A stretch of 42,882 nt of DNA from a virus, in the IMG/VR virus record IMGVR_UViG_3300050011_000065, positions 1-42,882 of that record. The stretch is one strand, 5' to 3'. The notes under the pieces were generated by a model. The model saw nothing but the letters and a program-made list of their open reading frames with translations, was not told where the DNA came from and made no database searches. Shown piece after piece: positions 3,975-40,804 of this stretch. Positions within the stretch are counted from its first letter, which is position 1, and each line of letters begins with the position of its first letter. The translations under genes were made by a program, and so were the position numbers.

Positions 3975-4549
3975 CCACGGTCGCGGCCGTCATCCCCTCG
4001 ATCCCGCCGAGAGCTGGGAAGCTCCTCGAGGCTTTGGCCTCCGTGGCCAATCAGACCAGGCCCGTCGACCAGATCAGCGTGGCGATCGACCACGAGCGTC
4101 AGGGCGCTGCTGCTACGCGCAACCGGGCATTCGCAGCCGTGGACTGCGAGTGGACCGCCTTCCTCGATGACGACGACCTCTGGCGACCGCAGCACGTTGA
4201 GCGGTTGCTCTCCACCGCCGTGAACTGCCACGCGGACCTCGTGTATCCGTGGTTCGACGTTGACGGCGGCAGCGATCCACTAGGTCGCGAGGGTGTGCCC
4301 TTCGACCCCGACGCTCTCCGGCTCAACAACTACATCCCCGTCACTCTGCTGGTGCGCACGGCCGCGCTTCGAGATGTGGGTGGCTTTCCCGTCCCGGGAT
4401 CGGAGGCATGGCCGCACGGCGACTGCGAGGACTGGGCCGCATGGCTGCAACTGCTCAACGCCGGGGCCACGTTCGTTCACCTCCCGGAGCGGACGTGGAT
4501 CTGGCGCTGGGATGGGCGGAACACCTCAGGGCGGGCGGATCGCTGGTGA
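3971..4549 (+). CDS. GT-A fold glycosyltransferase (family 2-like, 192 aa)
   Basis: It probably transfers a sugar from a nucleotide-sugar donor. It starts at GTG 3971, overlapping the protease stop (GTGA). The N-terminus TTVAAVIPSIPPR and LEALASVANQT are typical of family 2 enzymes, and the run DDDD at residues 66-69 is the metal-binding DXD motif. ATRNRAF precedes it as in family members. It is the first of four coupled sugar-related genes between protease and capsid genes, so the acceptor may be a virion protein. Confidence 0.8.
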   Translation: MTTVAAVIPSIPPRAGKLLEALASVANQTRPVDQISVAIDHERQGAAATRNRAFAAVDCEWTAFLDDDDLWRPQHVERLLSTAVNCHADLVYPWFDVDGGSDPLGREGVPFDPDALRLNNYIPVTLLVRTAALRDVGGFPVPGSEAWPHGDCEDWAAWLQLLNAGATFVHLPERTWIWRWDGRNTSGRADRW

Positions 4550-5031
4550 GGCTGAACATCGGCTGCGGCCCGTTCTACCGTGAGGGCTGGACGAACCTCG
4601 ACACCGAGCCCACGGTCCACCCCGACGTGATCGGCTCCATCTTGGCGCTGCCCTTCGACGCGGCCTCTGCCACCGCGGTCTATTGCGGCCACGTCCTCGA
4701 GCACGTCCCCCTGCAGGACATTCCTGCCGCGCTCGCCGAAGTCCATCGCGTGCTGGTGCCGGGTGGCAAGCTCTGCGTGGTCGGGCCCGACTTCACCCGC
4801 ATCCGAGAAGACACGCCAGAGAACGAGGTCGAGTGGGTCATCTACGGCTCCAAGCGGTGGGCCGGGGACTTCCACCAGTGGGCCTGCTGCGAGAGCCTCG
4901 TGGAGCGGTTCGTGCGGGACGCCGGGTTCCTCGACGTGATCGCCCGCCCGATCATCGACCCTGACCTCGGCGAGTGGTCGATCCCTGGCACGGCCTATCC
5001 GTGGCAGTGCGTGGTGCTGGCCACCCGATGA
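4546..5031 (+). CDS. SAM-dependent methyltransferase, class I (161 aa)
   Basis: It carries motif I LNIGCGP at residues 3-9, an acidic residue at the end of the second strand (NLDTEP), and the HVLEHVP / VHRVLVPGGKL block of the Methyltransf_11 type. This group often acts on sugars or small molecules, not DNA. The GTG at 4546 overlaps the previous stop (GTGA), so it is translationally coupled between two glycosyltransferases; O-methylation of a transferred sugar is a reasonable inference. Confidence 0.8.
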   Translation: MRLNIGCGPFYREGWTNLDTEPTVHPDVIGSILALPFDAASATAVYCGHVLEHVPLQDIPAALAEVHRVLVPGGKLCVVGPDFTRIREDTPENEVEWVIYGSKRWAGDFHQWACCESLVERFVRDAGFLDVIARPIIDPDLGEWSIPGTAYPWQCVVLATR

Positions 5032-5773: not shown

Positions 5774-6727
5774 GTGACCGTCTCGCGTGGCGTCTCGGCC
5801 CAGTGGGAGTCGACGCCGTGGGGGCCGCGGCTTCACGCCGTCGCGAAGGTCGACGCCGACGTGGCCGTCTTCCAGCGCGTCTTCCGTCCTGACCTCGTCC
5901 TGCTGATGCGTGCGATCCGGGAACAGGGCGTGACCGTGGTGCTCGACCTCGATGACGACTTCAGCGCCCTCGGCCCGAGACACCCCGTCTTCGAGGAAAT
6001 CCACCCTCGTCGAGGCGATACGGTCAAGTCCACGGCAGCGCTCCGCGAAGCCGTCAAGGTGGCCGACCTGGTCACCGTGAGCACTCCCGCGCTGGCGCGT
6101 AAATACAACGGTGTGGTTGTTCGCAACTGCATCCCACGGGCCTATATGGGTATTGAGCGCAACGAGAGCCACGAAATCCCACTGATCGGTTGGACGGGGA
6201 CGCCGAAGATGCATCCCGACGACCTTGAGGTGGTCGGGGACGCCGTCCGGCGGATCTGTGCGACGGAGGCCAGCTTCCGCGCCATCGGTGACCGGACCAC
6301 CCTTGACGTTCTCGGCGTACCGGATCAGCAGCACCAGCCCGGCGCTCGCCTTGACAACCTCGATTACGCCCACCTTGTCGCACAACTGGACATCGGCATC
6401 GTCCCGCTGGCTGATTCGGCCTTCAACCGCTCCAAGTCCTGGCTCAAGGGTCTGGAGTACGCAGCCCTCGGCGTCCCCTTCGTCGCCTCGATCGTCGCTG
6501 AGTACGAGGCGCTCAACTACATGGGCGTTGGTTCGCTGGCTGGCCGTCCCAACCAGTGGTACGCCTGCCTCCGTGGGCTCGTTGAATCCCCTGACCTCCG
6601 TCTGGCGATGGCTGCCCGAGGACGGGCGGTAGCTTCCACGCTGACCATCGAGGACACGATGGCTCCACAGGTCTGGGAAGCATGGAAAGCCGCTCGCTAC
6701 GCTAAGTCGCCCGTTCTGCTACGCTAA
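5774..6727 (+). CDS. GT-B fold glycosyltransferase (family 4-like, 317 aa or longer)
   Basis: GTG 5774 is the first canonical start, preceded by GGGAGAGG, but coding sequence seems to extend upstream to about 5681. Features include LDLDDDFSALG, VTVSTPALARKY, the domain-switch segment IPLIGWTGTPKMHPDDL, and the C-terminal WLKGLEYAALGVPFVAS with the glutamate position typical of retaining GT-B enzymes that bind the donor. It is the last sugar gene of the cassette. The C-terminal codons are made of the GCTACGCTAAG repeats that precede the lipoprotein. Confidence 0.8.
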   Translation: MTVSRGVSAQWESTPWGPRLHAVAKVDADVAVFQRVFRPDLVLLMRAIREQGVTVVLDLDDDFSALGPRHPVFEEIHPRRGDTVKSTAALREAVKVADLVTVSTPALARKYNGVVVRNCIPRAYMGIERNESHEIPLIGWTGTPKMHPDDLEVVGDAVRRICATEASFRAIGDRTTLDVLGVPDQQHQPGARLDNLDYAHLVAQLDIGIVPLADSAFNRSKSWLKGLEYAALGVPFVASIVAEYEALNYMGVGSLAGRPNQWYACLRGLVESPDLRLAMAARGRAVASTLTIEDTMAPQVWEAWKAARYAKSPVLLR

Positions 6728-7722: not shown

Positions 7723-7858
7723 TCCCCCTAGGGTGACGGTGAGGCCACTGGACGCTCCCGGATAGCGGAGCAGAGAGTGGACCGCCCTCACCGAGGCGGC
7801 TCCCTGGATACGGAGGCCACTGAGGCAAGTTAGTTCGACTTGTCCCTGGAGGCCCCAA

Positions 7859-9082
7859 ATGGCCGAAACCGAAGTCCCGATCGACCCTCAGGTCGAGATC
7901 GTCGGGGTCAGATCAGCACTCATGGAGCGCGCCGGCCGTCTGGCCGAGATGCTCTCCCAACCCGCCGAGAAGCGCTCCGAGACGTGGGGCGTGGAGATGA
8001 AGCAGGCCCGCGACGAGGTCGGTGGCCTCGACGCCCGCTTTACAGCCCTCGAGCGCCAGATCCAGCCAGAGGCCCCTGTTGGGCAGGGACCACAGGCTGC
8101 GAACTCCGCGATCCATGGCACCGTCGAGACCCGCTCGATGGGCCAGCAGTTCGTCGAGAGCGACGAGTATCGCGCCTGGCATGGCGAAGGTGGGCGCATC
8201 CCACAGGGGAACGTCTCCTCTGACGTGCGTACCACGGTCTCCTCGACCGCCACCAACGACGCGGGCTTTACTTCGGGCGGCTCGATGCTCCCGATCATGC
8301 CGTACATGCTGAACGTCAACGCGATCCGCAGGGATCGGTTGTACGTCAGGGATCTGCTCCCGCAGACCAACACCATGTTCGAAATCATCCACTTCGTCGG
8401 AGAGACCTACGTCTCTGGTGCCGGCGATGCAGGGATGGTGGCTGAAGCCGCGCTGAAGCCCGAAGTCGCGATGAACTGGTACCGCCAGGATCAGGCAGTC
8501 CGCAAGATCGCCGCCTGGGTGCCCGCCACGCTTGAGTCCCTGGCCGACGTCAATCAGCTCCGTGGAGCCATCGACAACCGCCTCGAGTACAAGCTTCGCC
8601 GCAAAGAGGAAGACCAGCTCATCAACGGTGATGGCACCGGCCAGAACCTTCTGGGCTTGCAGAACTTCCCGAACCTCCAGACCGCCTCTGCTGGAGCCAA
8701 CGCTCTGGCCAGCTTCACCAAGGGCATGTCTGCGATCGAGAACCACGACGGTGACGCCAGTGGCGCCATCTGGAACCCGACGGACTACTGGGCAGCGATG
8801 GCTGCATCGGCCGCAACCCTGACCGGCGCGTCGCCCTTCACGGGACCGCCGGACACCATCTGGGGCATTCCGTCCGTGCGTTCGCCGCGCCAGCAGGCCG
8901 GCCACGCCCTCCTCGGCGACTTCAAGCAAGCCGCCGAACTCTTCGACCGTGAGAGCGCAACCGTCCGCGTGGGCGATCAGCACTCGGACTTCTTCATTAG
9001 AAACCAAGTTGCCATTCTGATCGAGGAAAGGCTTGCTTTGGTTTGCTACAGGGGCGACCTCTTTTGTGACGTGACCCTCTAA
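7859..9082 (+). CDS. Major capsid protein, HK97 fold (407 aa)
   Basis: It builds the icosahedral shell. Residues about 1-110 form a charged, helical delta-like scaffold domain that the protease at 3087 would remove. The body has the usual HK97-type segments: DAGFTSGGSMLPIMPY, RLYVRDLLPQT, the AALKPE segment of the E-loop and P-domain region, EEDQLINGDGTGQNLLGL, and a C-terminal RNQVAILIEER. ATG 7859 has GGAGG upstream. The last 30 codons use AGA, AGG, ATT, GTT and TTT more than the rest of the gene, just before an HNH gene. Confidence 0.92.
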   Translation: MAETEVPIDPQVEIVGVRSALMERAGRLAEMLSQPAEKRSETWGVEMKQARDEVGGLDARFTALERQIQPEAPVGQGPQAANSAIHGTVETRSMGQQFVESDEYRAWHGEGGRIPQGNVSSDVRTTVSSTATNDAGFTSGGSMLPIMPYMLNVNAIRRDRLYVRDLLPQTNTMFEIIHFVGETYVSGAGDAGMVAEAALKPEVAMNWYRQDQAVRKIAAWVPATLESLADVNQLRGAIDNRLEYKLRRKEEDQLINGDGTGQNLLGLQNFPNLQTASAGANALASFTKGMSAIENHDGDASGAIWNPTDYWAAMAASAATLTGASPFTGPPDTIWGIPSVRSPRQQAGHALLGDFKQAAELFDRESATVRVGDQHSDFFIRNQVAILIEERLALVCYRGDLFCDVTL

Positions 9083-21388: not shown

Positions 21389-22156
21389 ATGACCGACTGC
21401 ATCCTGCTGCTCAGGTCCAATTACCAGGGATACCCGCAGCCTGGTGGCCCGACCGCGCACTTCGTACGAGTCGGAGCCGCCACGATGCACACCGTAAACC
21501 AGATGACCTCTGGCGGCCGCTGGCCGGGATCTGACTGCGCCGTGGCCGACATGCAGAGCGTTCTGCTCGACCGTGGCCTCCACGTCCCCGTCCTCTCGCT
21601 GGAGGCATACGCCAACACCAGCCAGTACGGGACAACCTGTGAGGGGATCGTCTACGCCCTCGCCAAGTACAAGGTGGCGTCCCACATCGTCCAAGGCAAC
21701 CCGCAGCCCGACTGGGTGATGAATCCTGCGTGGGGTGGGCTGCTGGCGCCGAGCCAGTTCCAAGCGTATCTCGCCGCCTCTCTCCGCGTCTACGTCCAGA
21801 TCGACGACGTGGCACCGGTTGGCACCACGATCCCAGTGGTAGGGCAACCGGAAGCAGCGATCAGCCTTGAAGCTGTGAATCCGAGAGACGTCTTCTGGAG
21901 AGGCGGCGCGCACACCTTCAAGATCGTGGCGAACGGCAACCTTCAACACCACTGGTTCGGCCCTACAGCGTGGAATGGCCCGGAGATCCTGGCGACTGGC
22001 CTAGTCAGCGGGCAGCACATCGAAGCCAACGTGGCCGCCGATGGCAGCTCGCTCTCCGTGAGCGTCAACCGTCCGGACGGACGCACCGCCCGCTTCACCC
22101 AGTTCCAGCCGCAGCCTGCCGGCCAGCCATCGTGGAGAGAGGACGAGATCACTTGA
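21389..22156 (+). CDS. Candidate endolysin with cysteine-peptidase-like N-terminus (255 aa)
   Basis: Residues about 50-105 (GSDCAVADMQSVLLDRG, TTCEGIVYALAKYKV) look like a C39/papain-like cysteine peptidase core, with Cys and a following helix, and a His in GSHIVQG-like context nearby. The C-terminal half is a beta-rich domain (NLQHHWFGPTAWNGPEI) that could bind the cell wall. It precedes a holin-like gene, the usual lysis gene order. The catalytic assignment is tentative; it could equally be a tail-associated hydrolase. Confidence 0.5.
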   Translation: MTDCILLLRSNYQGYPQPGGPTAHFVRVGAATMHTVNQMTSGGRWPGSDCAVADMQSVLLDRGLHVPVLSLEAYANTSQYGTTCEGIVYALAKYKVASHIVQGNPQPDWVMNPAWGGLLAPSQFQAYLAASLRVYVQIDDVAPVGTTIPVVGQPEAAISLEAVNPRDVFWRGGAHTFKIVANGNLQHHWFGPTAWNGPEILATGLVSGQHIEANVAADGSSLSVSVNRPDGRTARFTQFQPQPAGQPSWREDEIT

Positions 22157-22218
22157 TCGAAATCCTTGTGATCGTGCTGGTCGTCGTGCTTGTGCTCGTC
22201 CTCGTCAACCGCATCTAG
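22153..22218 (+). CDS. Micro membrane peptide (21 aa)
   Basis: TTG 22153 overlaps the endolysin stop (TTGA), and the peptide is almost wholly a membrane helix of Ile, Leu and Val, ending in NRI. It lies just before the holin-like gene and could be a holin antagonist, pinholin or membrane-stress peptide. Short length makes this uncertain, but coupling and composition favour translation. Confidence 0.5.
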   Translation: MIEILVIVLVVVLVLVLVNRI

Positions 22219-22226
22219 GAGAACCC

Positions 22227-22448
22227 GTGAACCTCTTTACTCAGGAACCCGCGCTCATCTCGGGCGCCCTCGTTGCCGTCATAGCTCTCGCCACCAGCTT
22301 CGGATTGCACTGGTCCGTTGATCAGGTCGGAGCCGTCACGGCAGCCTTCGGCGCTGTCCTTGCGCTGTTCGTCCGCTCCCAAGTCACCCCCACAGCCGCA
22401 GCCGTTCCGCCGACCCCCCCGCAGGTGCTCACTCCTCCGAAGGTCTGA
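22227..22448 (+). CDS. Holin-like protein, two membrane helices (73 aa)
   Basis: GTG 22227 has AGGAGAA just upstream. Residues about 10-28 (ISGALVAVIALATSFGLH) and 33-50 (GAVTAAFGAVLALFV) are membrane helices, followed by a Pro-rich tail. Size, topology and place next to the candidate endolysin fit a class II-type holin that opens the inner membrane. Confidence 0.7.
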   Translation: MNLFTQEPALISGALVAVIALATSFGLHWSVDQVGAVTAAFGAVLALFVRSQVTPTAAAVPPTPPQVLTPPKV

Positions 22449-22526
22449 GTGTCTCCCTTCGCACTGGTGGTGCTGCTTCCCTTGGTTCTCTACGCCGCCA
22501 GAGTTCTCGCTAGGCCAGAGGAATGA
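22449..22526 (+). CDS. Micro membrane peptide (25 aa)
   Basis: GTG 22449 directly follows the holin stop and its own stop overlaps the next ATG as ATGA. The peptide has one hydrophobic helix (FALVVLLPLVLYAA) and a basic tail (RVLARPEE). Together with the peptide at 22153 it brackets the holin gene. Confidence 0.5.
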   Translation: MSPFALVVLLPLVLYAARVLARPEE

Positions 22527-24844
22527 CCTTCCCCGCCCCGCCACCTGATCCCGGCAACCTCCCTGCCGTCCCTTACGGACAGGCCGCAGCGGATATGGCA
22601 CAGGCTGCCGCGGATCACACCGTCGCAGTGGCTGACCACGCCGCAGTCAAGACGCCGGGGAACGTGGTCAACAACTTCACCACTACGGTCGGCTGGAAGT
22701 CCATCGCTGCGGTGGTGATCGCCGCCACGCTCGGCTTCTTCACGGGGCAGTTCGTCCACACCGGGGTTCCTGGCAGCTCTCCACAGAGCGCCAGCAGCCG
22801 CGATCCCTACGTCCAGCCGTTCACCTCGACGTCGATCTGGAACCAGCCCATCGGCTCTAGCGCCGTCTATGTGGCCAGCGGGATCAAGCCGCTCACGCAG
22901 AAGGCGGTCACTACAGACCAGACCGTTCTCATTCAAGATCCCAGTGCGCCGTCGACCCCCGTTCTGCAGAACAAGGGGCAGCATTCCGACACATGCCTGG
23001 GTGCGGGGGCGCTAGGGTCCGACCCGATTCCGTCGGCTCTAGTGGTCCCCGCCTCGAACCACAACAACGGCTTCGCGGCCATCCAGAGCGACGGCCAGAC
23101 CATCGACGAGGGCGGAGCGTTCGCTCGCTGCGTGGCGGGTGGGACGGCAACTGCTGGTCATCTAGCCGCCTACGGCACCCTGTTCGGTGACGGGCTGACC
23201 GGTGGGGCGGGCGGCTCCAAACTGAGCACCCTCGGCGGTCTCCTGCGCCCTGGTGAGATCGCTCCCGGCAAGGTTGAGGTGCCCCACGCCCTGCGCGTCA
23301 ACATCGACTGCCCGGTGGACTGCACGCCGTCCAGTCCCGGCTTCCGTTGGCCAGCAACAAAGAAGGATAGCTATGCCTATTCGCCCGGCGGAACCGTTGG
23401 TGCTCTATCTATGGGAGCCCTCCTCGCTGTACCTCCTGCCTTCAATTGCTCAACTCTCGGACTTGCTGGCGCAGAACTGTGTCGGACCCTCCAGGATTAC
23501 GGCGGCTACGTCGCCAACGATTCCGCCCAGAGCGTCTTTGCTCTAAACACAGAGCAGGGAGACGCCAACACTGCGGCGCAGTTCCAGAGCGATTGGGGTT
23601 TCCCGCTGGCAACGGCTGGCGCCACAGGGGCTGGCTGGGCGAACGATGTTCAGACGATCGTCAGAAGTCTGGCGGTGGTCGACAACAACGGACCGAACAA
23701 TATCGGGGGCGGAGGGACGCCACGGCAGCCTCTCGCTGCACCGTTGGCAACCTCGTGCCTGACAGCGGCGAGGCTGACGGCCTTCACCTCGACGCCTATG
23801 GACCCCGACGCCGATGGCGATTCGGACTTCACTGAGGCACCCGACGCGACGGCATCGCCAAGCGCCACTCCTTCCCCGACCGCTTCCGCCAGTATGTCTC
23901 CCAGTCCCACTTCGTCGCCTTCTGCCAGCGCGTCGGCCAGTCCTTGTCCGACACCGACCGCCTCCAGTCCAACTCCCACCCCTTCAAGCACGGGGACACC
24001 TGGGCCAACTCCCACTCCGACGTCAACGGTGCCGCCGACCCCGACTCCAACTCTGGCATCAGGCACTCCCCATGTCATGGTGATCATAGAAGAGAACAAG
24101 GGCGCGGCTGCGACGCTGGGAACCTGTAGTGCAGATCCCTACGCCTGCTCTCTCGCTGCCAAGTATGCCTCGTTCTCGAACAGTCATGGAATCACCCACC
24201 CATCGGAGCCAAACTACGTCGCCTTCGAGAGCGGTGGCATCCAAGGTTGCACCACGGACAGCTCCTGCGCGGCCAACTCCGTCTCGGCCACCGACCTCGG
24301 AGGCCAACTCACCGCAGCCGGCATGCCGTGGGTGAGCTGGATGGAGTCCATGCCCTCTCCATGCTACACGGGGGGCAGCTCTGGGCTCTACGTCCTCAAG
24401 CACTCCTTCGGCGGATTCTTCAAGGACAACTACGGCGGTGCCTGCAACATCCAGCCGTATCCAGGCAGCAGCGCCGCAATCTCCACGCTCAACGGCGCCA
24501 ATGCCCCCGACTTCGTGTGGATCAGTCCCAACCTCAACAACGACGCCCACAACGGCACGGTCCAGCAGATGGACGCGTGGCTGTCTGCCAACCTCGCACC
24601 CATCCTCGCGAGCAACTGGTTCACCGGGTTCCCCTCGACAGTTGTCTGGACCATGGATGAGGGCGACGCCGGCAGCACCAATCTGATCCCGACCGTTGTG
24701 ATCTCGAACAACGGCCTCGGCAAGGGCCACATCACCACCTCGGTCAACCACTACTCGGTGCTCCGGGCGATCGAACTCGCGTACGGCCTACCGCTGCTTG
24801 GAGGAGCTGCCACCGCCAGCGACATGACGGGTGTTTTCGGGTGA
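22523..24844 (+). CDS. Membrane-anchored two-domain exoenzyme: lyase-like domain plus phosphoesterase (773 aa)
   Basis: A cytoplasmic N-terminus (about 1-57) is followed by one membrane helix (WKSIAAVVIAATLGFF). The outer part has two units. Residues about 95-430 (STSIWNQPIG, KLSTLGGLLRPGE, FRWPATKKDSYAY, DNNGPNNIGGGGTP) match a secreted-protein family I know only as uncharacterised or polysaccharide-lyase-like. A Pro/Ser/Thr linker (about 437-515) leads to a phosphoesterase/phospholipase C-type domain: HVMVIIEENKG, ITHPSEPNYV, WISPNLNNDAHNG and TMDEGD. Lying in the lysis region, it may attack envelope polymers or lipids, or be a virion or exclusion protein. The 3' end overlaps an antisense HNH gene. 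Confidence 0.72.
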   Translation: MTFPAPPPDPGNLPAVPYGQAAADMAQAAADHTVAVADHAAVKTPGNVVNNFTTTVGWKSIAAVVIAATLGFFTGQFVHTGVPGSSPQSASSRDPYVQPFTSTSIWNQPIGSSAVYVASGIKPLTQKAVTTDQTVLIQDPSAPSTPVLQNKGQHSDTCLGAGALGSDPIPSALVVPASNHNNGFAAIQSDGQTIDEGGAFARCVAGGTATAGHLAAYGTLFGDGLTGGAGGSKLSTLGGLLRPGEIAPGKVEVPHALRVNIDCPVDCTPSSPGFRWPATKKDSYAYSPGGTVGALSMGALLAVPPAFNCSTLGLAGAELCRTLQDYGGYVANDSAQSVFALNTEQGDANTAAQFQSDWGFPLATAGATGAGWANDVQTIVRSLAVVDNNGPNNIGGGGTPRQPLAAPLATSCLTAARLTAFTSTPMDPDADGDSDFTEAPDATASPSATPSPTASASMSPSPTSSPSASASASPCPTPTASSPTPTPSSTGTPGPTPTPTSTVPPTPTPTLASGTPHVMVIIEENKGAAATLGTCSADPYACSLAAKYASFSNSHGITHPSEPNYVAFESGGIQGCTTDSSCAANSVSATDLGGQLTAAGMPWVSWMESMPSPCYTGGSSGLYVLKHSFGGFFKDNYGGACNIQPYPGSSAAISTLNGANAPDFVWISPNLNNDAHNGTVQQMDAWLSANLAPILASNWFTGFPSTVVWTMDEGDAGSTNLIPTVVISNNGLGKGHITTSVNHYSVLRAIELAYGLPLLGGAATASDMTGVFG

Positions 24845-27851: not shown

Positions 27852-28414
27852 TCCCCCATTCTCCTAATGAGCCGAGGAACGGAGCAGTCGGGGGCGTGTT
27901 CGAGGGGCGTCGCGGAGTCCTCCTCCTGCATAACGAAGCACCCTTGGCACTGGACGCACTCGACCCACGGCCCCACGTCCGCCAATTGGTGGGCTTCGAT
28001 CCACTGCCGACGGGCTTCAGAGAGGGCACGGGCGTCGAGAAGGTCTCTGGCCATCTTGTGCGTCTTGATCGGACAACCGGCGTCTCCCGTCCGACATTTG
28101 CTGATCGCCGCACGAACGTCCTCATCGCTCACCCTCTCTTTCCGGAGAGCCTCAAGGTAGCGGCTCGTCTCCGTCTCCATCAGATCGCGAGCCACTCTCG
28201 CCCTGGTCGTGGGCTCCTCGCTCATTCCCCCATCCTCCCACGCAGCAAACTGAGGAACGGAGCAGCCGGGAAGGTGGCAGAAGGTGCGTACCGTGGCGTC
28301 GGAAGATACGGTACCCACGCACTCGGGGCAGTAGTTGCTCTTGACTGCGTGCTCCGTGATCCACGCACGACGACGGAGCACGTCCTCCGTCAGATCGCTC
28401 ACCTGATCGCTCAT
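27848..28414 (-). CDS. Fusion of two zinc-family cassettes (188 aa)
   Basis: The N-terminal half copies the 27660 gene (MSDQVSDLTEDVLRRRAWI, CPEC, PGCSVP) and the C-terminal half has SEARRQWIEAH, CVQCQGC and HAPDCSVPRL. At the join the reading frame passes through the usual junction sequence because of one extra base near 28252 compared with the 27660 copy, so the first cassette's stop is bypassed. The internal ATG at 28225 with GGGGGA would still allow the second part (125 aa) to be made alone. Could also be a sequencing error. Confidence 0.65.
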   Translation of the reverse strand: MSDQVSDLTEDVLRRRAWITEHAVKSNYCPECVGTVSSDATVRTFCHLPGCSVPQFAAWEDGGMSEEPTTRARVARDLMETETSRYLEALRKERVSDEDVRAAISKCRTGDAGCPIKTHKMARDLLDARALSEARRQWIEAHQLADVGPWVECVQCQGCFVMQEEDSATPLEHAPDCSVPRLIRRMGE

Positions 28415-28665
28415 TCCCCAATCCTCCCGTGCGAACTGACGTAGGTGCCGGGTGGGTAGTAGATCACTCCCCCGGTCACAATGGCCCGTGACGGCAGCCG
28501 CCCGATAGACTGCACTGCTCGCCGAATCGCCGCCGTGTCATCAGCCACTCCGTCACCGACCGCTCCGTAGTCCTTGACGTTCACCCAAAAGGGGCGTGGC
28601 CACGGACGGCGCAGAACCAACACGACTGCCGCGACGCCCAGCGCGATCCGAAGTATCCGCTTCAT
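28411..28665 (-). CDS. Membrane-anchored fragment of a pectate-lyase-like protein (84 aa)
   Basis: An N-terminal signal anchor (RILRIALGVAAVVLVL) is followed by VNVKDYGAVGDGVADDTAAI and GGVIYYPPGTYVSS, the characteristic first coil of pectate-lyase-3/glycosyl hydrolase 28-type beta-helix proteins. The helix itself is missing; the gene stops with GRIGE in the shared junction. It is either a decayed fragment moved into the array or a small domain reused alone. Confidence 0.6.
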   Translation of the reverse strand: MKRILRIALGVAAVVLVLRRPWPRPFWVNVKDYGAVGDGVADDTAAIRRAVQSIGRLPSRAIVTGGVIYYPPGTYVSSHGRIGE

Positions 28666-38788: not shown

Positions 38789-40804
38789 GTGAGCCTGCGC
38801 AACCTTCAGTACTTGGTCTCCGATCTGGCGGGCAACCCACTCATCGGCGCCACGGTCACCTGCGACCTAGCGGTTCCAGCGGCGCTCACCTCGACCGGCG
38901 TGATCGTTCCTGGCGAACTGGTCACCCTCACCAACGCCAGCGGGATCGCCGCCTTCTCGGTCTACGCCAATGCCGACCTAACCCCAGCGAACACGTCATA
39001 CGTCCTCACGGTCCATCACACCACCCTGGTCCCCGTCTCGATCGTGGTGCCGAGCGGCGCGTACAACGGAGCCCGCCCGACGTACTTTGACGTGGTGCTG
39101 GACAACCTGATCGTGGCTGTCCCGGCGACACCGGGGAACTACCAGGTGGGACCAACCGGCGCGCAAGGGCCATCCGGCCTGATCGCGCTGAATGCCGCGA
39201 ACACGTTCACGGCGCCCCAGACGATCCCATTGGTCGATCGTGGCGGAACGGTCTACAACGCCACCGGCGCGATCGCTGCCAACGGCTCAACGGACGATCA
39301 GGCTGCCTTGACGAGCTTCGCGGGCACGATCCCTTCGGGTGGGACGTTGCAGCTTCCGGCGAGCACGATCGTCCAGATCGCCAGTACCTTCCGCATCCCA
39401 CCGGGCGTCAACCTCGATCTCAATCACGCCACCCTGCGCTATACCGGGTCAAGTGTCGCTCTCGACTGCAACGTGGCGGGCGGAGCGACGAACCGCAATG
39501 ACCTCCTCCGCGTTCAGAACGGGACAGTAGACCTCACCACGGCGGGAGGCGGTGCGATCGGGGTGCGAATCGACAATGTGTCACGGTCGAAATGGAGAAA
39601 CGTCTGGGTCAACGGCAATGGCGTCTCCTGTACAGCCCTGCAACTTCTCGGTTCCGCGGCCAAATCTACCTACTTCAACGCCTTCCACGACTGTGACTTT
39701 TCGGCAGATACCGCCGTGGTTACGATCGGGGACCAGTGCAACGCCAACGAGTTCTGGGGTGGTGTCTGGGAGGGTGGCGCCGCGGCCACCGGGTTGACCT
39801 GTAACCCGACCACCTCAAACAGTGGCCAGTGCAAGTTCTTCAGCGTCTCCCTGCAGACGGGGGGAGCCGCGCTTATGTCCCTCGGGACTGGTGCCGCCTA
39901 TGTGCAACAGTTCGAGTTTCACGGCTGCCGCTTTGAGCCGACCAACCCAGCCTCGCTGACGCTCGGCGCCGAGGCGTATGACCCCCTGTTCGTGGGTGGG
40001 ATCTACGCCTCGGTCACCATCTCGGACTCCACCCCTGCCGGTCACTCTGCCGTCTTCCTGATGTCCCCAGGCGTCGGTGCCGGAGGTCTCGGCACCCTCA
40101 AAGTCGGGCCGAACACCATTCAGAACACCTCTACCGGGGTCAATGGGACGCTGCTCAAGGCCGCCGATACTGGCCAAGCCGCACAAATAGTAGCCCAAGG
40201 CCAAGACACCAACATCGGTTGGTACCTCCTCCCCAAGGGCACCGGGGCCGTGCGTGTGGCCGACAGCACTGTCACCTACATCAATGAACTCACCGACAGC
40301 GCGGGTAATGCGACGTTTTCGGGAGCCGTTCGGACGCAGGGCACCAGCACCTCCACGGGCTTCACCGCCGGCTACGGAGCGGCCACCAACACTGTCTACG
40401 CCGCCGCAGCTGTTGCCATCGGTGGGTCGGTGACCAACCAGAACCTCTACGTTGACGCCAAGGGGACTGGCGCCATCGCTTTCAACACGCAGAACGGAGC
40501 CACCGGCGGCGTACAGGTGCAGGGTGGCTCCGTCGACGTGACGACAGCGGGCAAGGGGTTGAAAGTTGCCGAAGGCTCCAACGCCAAGCAGGGCCTCACG
40601 GCCGCTCTCGCTGGAACTCCTGGGACGCTCGTGGTGGCCAATACCAGCATAACGGCCAACTCACGAGTGATGCTGACCAGAGCAACGCCAGGCGGGACAT
40701 TGGGACATATTTCGGTCACGGTCATCGCCAGCACCAGCTTCACGATCCTATCGACCGCGAACGAAACCTCAACCTTCAACTTCCAGATATTCGAGCCGGG
40801 GTGA
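38789..40804 (+). CDS. Tail spike/fibre with beta-helix domain (671 aa)
   Basis: Residues about 1-115 form a carboxypeptidase-regulatory-like beta domain (NPLIGATVTCDLAVP), then a short collagen-like GPTGAQGPSG. Residues about 160-430 resemble pectate-lyase-type right-handed beta helices with inserted turns (GTVYNATGAIAANGSTDDQA, FRIPPGVNLDLNHATL). The C-terminal third is a Gly/Thr/Ala-rich beta region ending TLGHISVTVIASTSFTIL and FNFQIFEPG, like trimeric fibre tips. It probably recognises or degrades host surface glycans. No clear catalytic pair could be assigned. Confidence 0.75.
   Translation: MSLRNLQYLVSDLAGNPLIGATVTCDLAVPAALTSTGVIVPGELVTLTNASGIAAFSVYANADLTPANTSYVLTVHHTTLVPVSIVVPSGAYNGARPTYFDVVLDNLIVAVPATPGNYQVGPTGAQGPSGLIALNAANTFTAPQTIPLVDRGGTVYNATGAIAANGSTDDQAALTSFAGTIPSGGTLQLPASTIVQIASTFRIPPGVNLDLNHATLRYTGSSVALDCNVAGGATNRNDLLRVQNGTVDLTTAGGGAIGVRIDNVSRSKWRNVWVNGNGVSCTALQLLGSAAKSTYFNAFHDCDFSADTAVVTIGDQCNANEFWGGVWEGGAAATGLTCNPTTSNSGQCKFFSVSLQTGGAALMSLGTGAAYVQQFEFHGCRFEPTNPASLTLGAEAYDPLFVGGIYASVTISDSTPAGHSAVFLMSPGVGAGGLGTLKVGPNTIQNTSTGVNGTLLKAADTGQAAQIVAQGQDTNIGWYLLPKGTGAVRVADSTVTYINELTDSAGNATFSGAVRTQGTSTSTGFTAGYGAATNTVYAAAAVAIGGSVTNQNLYVDAKGTGAIAFNTQNGATGGVQVQGGSVDVTTAGKGLKVAEGSNAKQGLTAALAGTPGTLVVANTSITANSRVMLTRATPGGTLGHISVTVIASTSFTILSTANETSTFNFQIFEPG

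Follow-up and report, generated by a model that had tools for sequence, protein, structure and literature searches.

A phage-encoded fusion of an unnamed exodomain and a predicted SapM/AcpA-type phosphoesterase has a chromosomal counterpart in Dormibacteria

Results

Architecture and gene setting of the fusion protein

What would a phage gain from an apparently membrane-anchored protein that joins an unnamed exodomain to a phosphoesterase, and where did such a gene come from? These questions are raised by an open reading frame (22523-24844, + strand) in the window, which is the whole stretch of 42,882 bases of viral DNA (an IMG/VR record) analysed here and is probably the complete genome of a soil phage, because it carries a 127-base direct terminal repeat. 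The frame has an ATG start and runs without interruption for 773 amino acids. It is judged not to be a chance frame, since copies occur on two other viral contigs. A full-length copy with 73% identity lies on a 40 kb contig (L001) whose gene order is that of the window, and a third copy is carried by an unrelated 37.7 kb phage contig (the G004 phage), whose two ends share a 134-base overlap at 99% and which has nothing else in common with the window over the 8 kb compared.

The protein can be divided into five parts, all encoded on the + strand. A tail of 58 residues with AADH repeats (22523-22696), predicted to be cytoplasmic, ends in K58 just before the only clear transmembrane candidate, residues 60-78 (22700-22756; mean hydropathy 1.82), a predicted signal anchor. 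This bears out the single N-terminal membrane helix proposed in the initial annotation of this DNA. In the G004 copy, which was read at the start of its contig, a similar AADH-repeat tail and a hydrophobic segment likewise stand ahead of the exodomain, so the N-terminal anchor looks like a conserved feature of the phage copies. The exodomain (residues 98-412, about 315 amino acids; 22814-23758) belongs to an unnamed family that we call the SIWN domain after its invariant motif. It is followed by a linker (residues 413-513; 23759-24061) that is rich in Pro, Ser and Thr, as had been noted, and also in Ala, and by a C-terminal domain (residues 514-773; 24062-24841) that matches the Pfam phosphoesterase profile PF04185.

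The initial annotation had placed the gene after endolysin and holin genes and suggested a third-stage lysis enzyme, which would open up an additional layer of the envelope once the endolysin has acted. In the window, a putative endolysin of 255 amino acids resembling C39 peptidases (21389-22156, + strand) and a holin-like protein of 73 amino acids (22227-22448, + strand; phrog_9752, E 1.2e-9) do precede the fusion gene, and L001 is arranged alike. The fusion start codon is overlapped (ATGA) by a gene with a GTG start for a hydrophobic peptide of 25 amino acids (VSPFALVVLLPLVLYAARVLARPEE; 22449-22526, + strand), presumably a transmembrane peptide, which is conserved in L001. The holin-like assignment thus stands, but the endolysin matches Peptidase_C39 only below the cut-off, and the G004 phage departs from this position: there, the fusion gene follows the major head protein gene and precedes that of the head-tail adaptor. 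We therefore rejected the lysis-cassette position as an informative or conserved feature. With a chromosomal version present in a cell as well (see below), we consider a third-stage lysis function very unlikely. A search for promoter-like sites around the fusion gene came up empty, a result that carries no weight either way.

Several other features of these genomes were recorded. A hydrophobic peptide of 21 amino acids is encoded at about 22153-22218 (+ strand), so that it and the 25-residue peptide flank the holin-like gene; both have L001 counterparts. The putative endolysin of L001 ends in repeats common to secreted Dormibacteria phosphoesterase and SIWN proteins (E ~1e-21). In the G004 phage, the fusion gene adjoins a gene for a protein of 786 amino acids (L154:15146-17506) that consists mostly of AAGAAxASG-type repeats and has no family match. 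The head module of the window contains a methyltransferase-like gene (4408-5031) and a glycosyltransferase gene (5774-6727, + strand; phrog_7162, E 1.8e-38). Downstream of the fusion gene, on the - strand (28411-28665), lies a frame of 84 amino acids in which a hydrophobic N-terminus leads into a segment that resembles a pectate-lyase-type domain over roughly its first 45 residues (KDYGAVGDGVADDTAAI) before the frame stops; it may be a truncated protein or an anchor.

The C-terminal domain carries a complete set of SapM-type residues

The initial annotation had described the C-terminal domain as a phosphoesterase with EEN, HPSEPNY and DEGD-type metal motifs. The Pfam profile search confirmed this assignment: residues 539-757 match PF04185 with E 1.2e-13 and 51.5 bits against a cut-off of 23, and the L001 copy scores 74.2 bits. 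The motifs are found at residues 523-525 (EEN), 559-565 (HPSEPNY) and 711-715 (MDEGD), together with LKH at 625-627 and DAHNG at 674-678. In SapM, E59, N60, S95 (in a PSE motif), H160, H204, D238 and E239 are essential, and K159 is important (PMC6635428). All eight of these catalytic or substrate residues have counterparts in order in the fusion, where the mapping follows motif order relative to PMC6635428 rather than an alignment to the SapM sequence. E524-N525 (24092-24097) and D712-E713 (24656-24661) correspond to E59-N60 and D238-E239 and form the predicted metal site, which is assigned from motifs alone. S561 of the PSE motif P560-S561-E562 (24203-24205) is the predicted nucleophile, corresponding to S95; K626-H627 (24398-24403), corresponding to K159-H160, would bind substrate; and H676 (24548-24550) corresponds to H204. 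These codons are all on the + strand. The eight residues are invariant among the three phage copies, whereas the position after the serine is E or Q. A structure model of the domain built with AF2 from three sequences reached a pLDDT of 36, too low for use.

Judged from these motifs, the C-terminal domain is a SapM/AcpA-type phosphoesterase with the full set of predicted catalytic residues. It shares with these phosphatases the Pfam family and the ordered EN, PSE, KH, H and DE elements, but differs from them in being phage-encoded, membrane-anchored and joined to a second exodomain. No match to the domain was found among the phage records of INPHARED.

The SIWN exodomain is widespread and matches no solved fold

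The exodomain had been called lyase-like, with about 335 residues. An exodomain of roughly that size is present, but the lyase-like character found no support. The exodomain has no Pfam or NCBIfam match in profile searches, and among its relatives (31 members) the sole Pfam match has an E of 0.28. The AF2 model obtained from an alignment of these 31 sequences has a pLDDT of 91.8 and a pTM of 0.90, yet a fold search with it against the PDB found no matching fold (best E 4.7), and sequence and profile searches of the PDB found no relevant match. A known polysaccharide lyase or glycosidase was therefore rejected as the identity of the exodomain. Near-invariant residues of the family are P99, S104, I105, W106, N107, P109, I110, D190, G224, R242, E245, H255, P277, D282, Q324, G327 and Y329.

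SIWN domains occur in secreted-looking proteins of Actinomycetota, Bacteroidota, Acidobacteriota, Myxococcota, Cyanobacteriota, Armatimonadota, Pseudomonadota and Chloroflexota. A remoter branch, which we refer to as NxWN proteins, is found in the phylum of G001, a Candidatus Dormibacterota metagenome-assembled genome (the genome behind L021). By eye, some NxWN proteins carry regions resembling GH114 or LamG, and other SIWN-superfamily proteins have regions resembling GH114 or lectin repeats.

In the BFVD, fold matches of the SIWN model were proteins of Gordonia phages and uncultured phages, one of which bears the name of a parallel beta-helix repeat protein. The domains from Gordonia phages are ~33% identical (BFVD E 8e-18), and in many of 54 Gordonia phage records the proteins are annotated as minor tail proteins. 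These matches raise the alternative that the fusion belongs to the virion, as an appendage of the tail or head that attacks the host surface at adsorption, and the location of the G004 gene between capsid and head-tail genes fits such a role. The Gordonia proteins (for example, those of Guillaume, Confidence gp29 and Trax gp22) share the SIWN domain and its predicted fold with the fusion, but no phosphoesterase domain and no such anchor were found in them, and they lie on a very remote branch of the SIWN tree. The outcome that had been named as refuting the initial reading, homologues that are consistently virion tail proteins, is thus not what the searches show. The conserved transmembrane helix, the cytoplasmic-type tail and the linker of a type seen in secreted proteins do not suit a virion component, nor does a closest cellular relative that is chromosomal and has a signal peptide, and a tail fibre and a tailspike are encoded separately in the window. 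In trees of both domains, secreted Dormibacteria proteins come closest once the phage fusions themselves are set aside. A virion tail protein was rejected as the main reading; we regard a virion role as quite unlikely. The tailspike-like protein of the window (38789-40804, + strand) has a K1-lyase-type C-terminal chaperone domain (PF24146) and is encoded far from the tail genes, directly before the terminase gene.

A Dormibacteria chromosome encodes the same domain arrangement

The phosphoesterase domain was found in 91 of 110 genomes of Dormibacteria, the class of G001 within a little-studied group of soil bacteria, with a best identity of 64%. In the phylum of Actinomycetospora, where the phosphoesterase domain was the only query, 27 of 247 genomes had it, mostly at 30-42% and at most at about 42% identity. 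One Dormibacteria contig (G206:C149) contains a frame of 702 amino acids made up of a signal-peptide-like start, a SIWN domain (E 6e-111), a linker and a phosphoesterase domain (E 9.5e-129), with 52% and 63% identity to the phage SIWN and phosphoesterase domains, respectively. Its other genes, named from reading the sequences rather than from profile searches, include rpoB and genes for ribosomal protein L10, sulfotransferases, a glycosyltransferase, a polymerase and a flippase. On the same contig (L118, L123 and L124), several genes with a phosphoesterase domain lie clustered together, and some of them include lectin-like repeats.

With this chromosomal copy, a phage-specific invention of the fusion was rejected. 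The cellular protein has the SIWN-linker-phosphoesterase architecture of the phage fusion, but begins with a signal-peptide-like sequence instead of a cytoplasmic-type tail and transmembrane anchor. In the phosphoesterase tree, it forms a clade with the three phage copies (support 96/99). In the SIWN tree, the corresponding clade also includes one further Dormibacteria protein (support 98/99), and the Gordonia phage domains are remote. On the evidence of these trees, the phage and G206:C149 fusions share ancestry. The direction of transfer was presumably from cell to phage, because both domains are widely spread in cells. Because the phage copies group with a cellular homologue that has their architecture and lies on a contig with an rpoB-like gene, the fusion qualifies as a host-derived auxiliary gene. 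This gene affinity points to Dormibacterota as the likely phage host; no close prophage in Dormibacteria came up in searches with the terminase and one tail-gene probe.

The phosphoesterase recurs with glycan-active partners in cells and viruses

In the 110 Dormibacteria genomes, four of the 11 GH99 genes lie ~1 kb from a phosphoesterase gene (in G124, G148, G240 and G242), and two more, both in G265, share a reading frame with one. A rough binomial estimate for this proximity within 5 kb is 3e-10, a value that overstates independence, since it draws partly on related genomes and paralogues. G068 encodes a cellular phosphoesterase-GH16 fusion, and SIWN-superfamily genes adjoin phosphoesterase genes at G172:C92, G250:C222, G250:C217 and G252:C119.

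Viral contigs show all three pairings of the cellular type: SIWN-phosphoesterase (three contigs), phosphoesterase-GH16 and phosphoesterase plus GH99. The viral genes were sought with a narrow, GC-biased pattern, which may have missed others. In L149, both domains of the GH16 pair are in a single protein, and portal and head-protease genes are present; in L152, a GH99 gene overlaps the phosphoesterase gene, and a DnaB-like helicase is encoded close by. The hosts of these two contigs may lie in or outside Dormibacteria. L149 also encodes, near its head genes, a phage RNA ligase family match (7834-9036; E 2.9e-109). Because unrelated phages carry similar pairs, the combination of a phosphoesterase with a glycan-active partner looks like a recurrent means of altering the host surface or slime.

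These partners also bear on a further alternative, that the fusion is an auxiliary metabolic gene for phosphate scavenging, whose exported phosphatase frees phosphate from organic matter for more phage DNA. Precedents exist, since soil phages carry phoD and other phosphorus-acquisition genes and one phage PhoD is active, according to the sections of PMC10987575 considered here, and SapM is a phosphatase of broad monoester range (PMC6635428). However, the SIWN domain and the repeated GH99 and GH16 partners have no obvious place in scavenging, and in each of the three phages with the fusion, its gene has late lysis or structural genes as neighbours. We consider phosphate scavenging unlikely.

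Discussion

The explanation that we favour, with moderate confidence, is that the fusion is a host-derived, membrane-anchored exoenzyme of the infected cell whose target is a phosphorylated glycan of the surface or matrix. Among the possibilities first put forward for this gene, an enzyme that alters the surface of infected cells remains the best class of explanation. The glycan is preferred as target because the phosphoesterase is repeatedly fused to, or located beside, GH99, GH16 and SIWN-superfamily proteins. The infected cell would make the fusion late, together with structural or lysis proteins, and insert it with its N-terminus inside and its C-terminus outside, so that both domains would lie outside the cytoplasmic membrane. 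For an export signal, 58 residues ahead of the transmembrane helix make a long tail, which counts against this insertion. The SIWN domain may bind or cut the surface or matrix glycan, and the phosphoesterase would use Ser561 and a metal held by E524, N525, D712 and E713 to strip phosphate from the polymer itself or from fragments of it. A phosphorylated envelope or slime would thereby be loosened or altered, and the phage might gain because its progeny escape more easily or because superinfecting phages bind less well. A wider proposition, which we advance only tentatively and hold to be doubtful, is that Dormibacteria phages repeatedly take over host pairs of phosphatase and glycan enzyme (SIWN-phosphoesterase, phosphoesterase-GH16 and phosphoesterase plus GH99) and use them to break down or reshape a phosphorylated glycan of the host surface, and that SIWN is a new, glycan-cleaving fold found across bacterial phyla.

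Like the phosphorus-acquisition genes of soil phages, such as phoD, the fusion is a phage-borne phosphatase gene presumed to be host-derived, but the protein families differ. PF04185 phosphatases, which our results suggest are carried by soil phages, are absent from the phage phosphorus genes named in those sections of PMC10987575. The SIWN domain emerges as an unnamed, widespread secreted domain without a recognisable solved fold, whose partners give it a testable glycan-related role. Finally, the fusion offers a gene-based link between soil phages and Dormibacterota, a phylum for which a text search turned up only four papers that mention phages and viruses as well.
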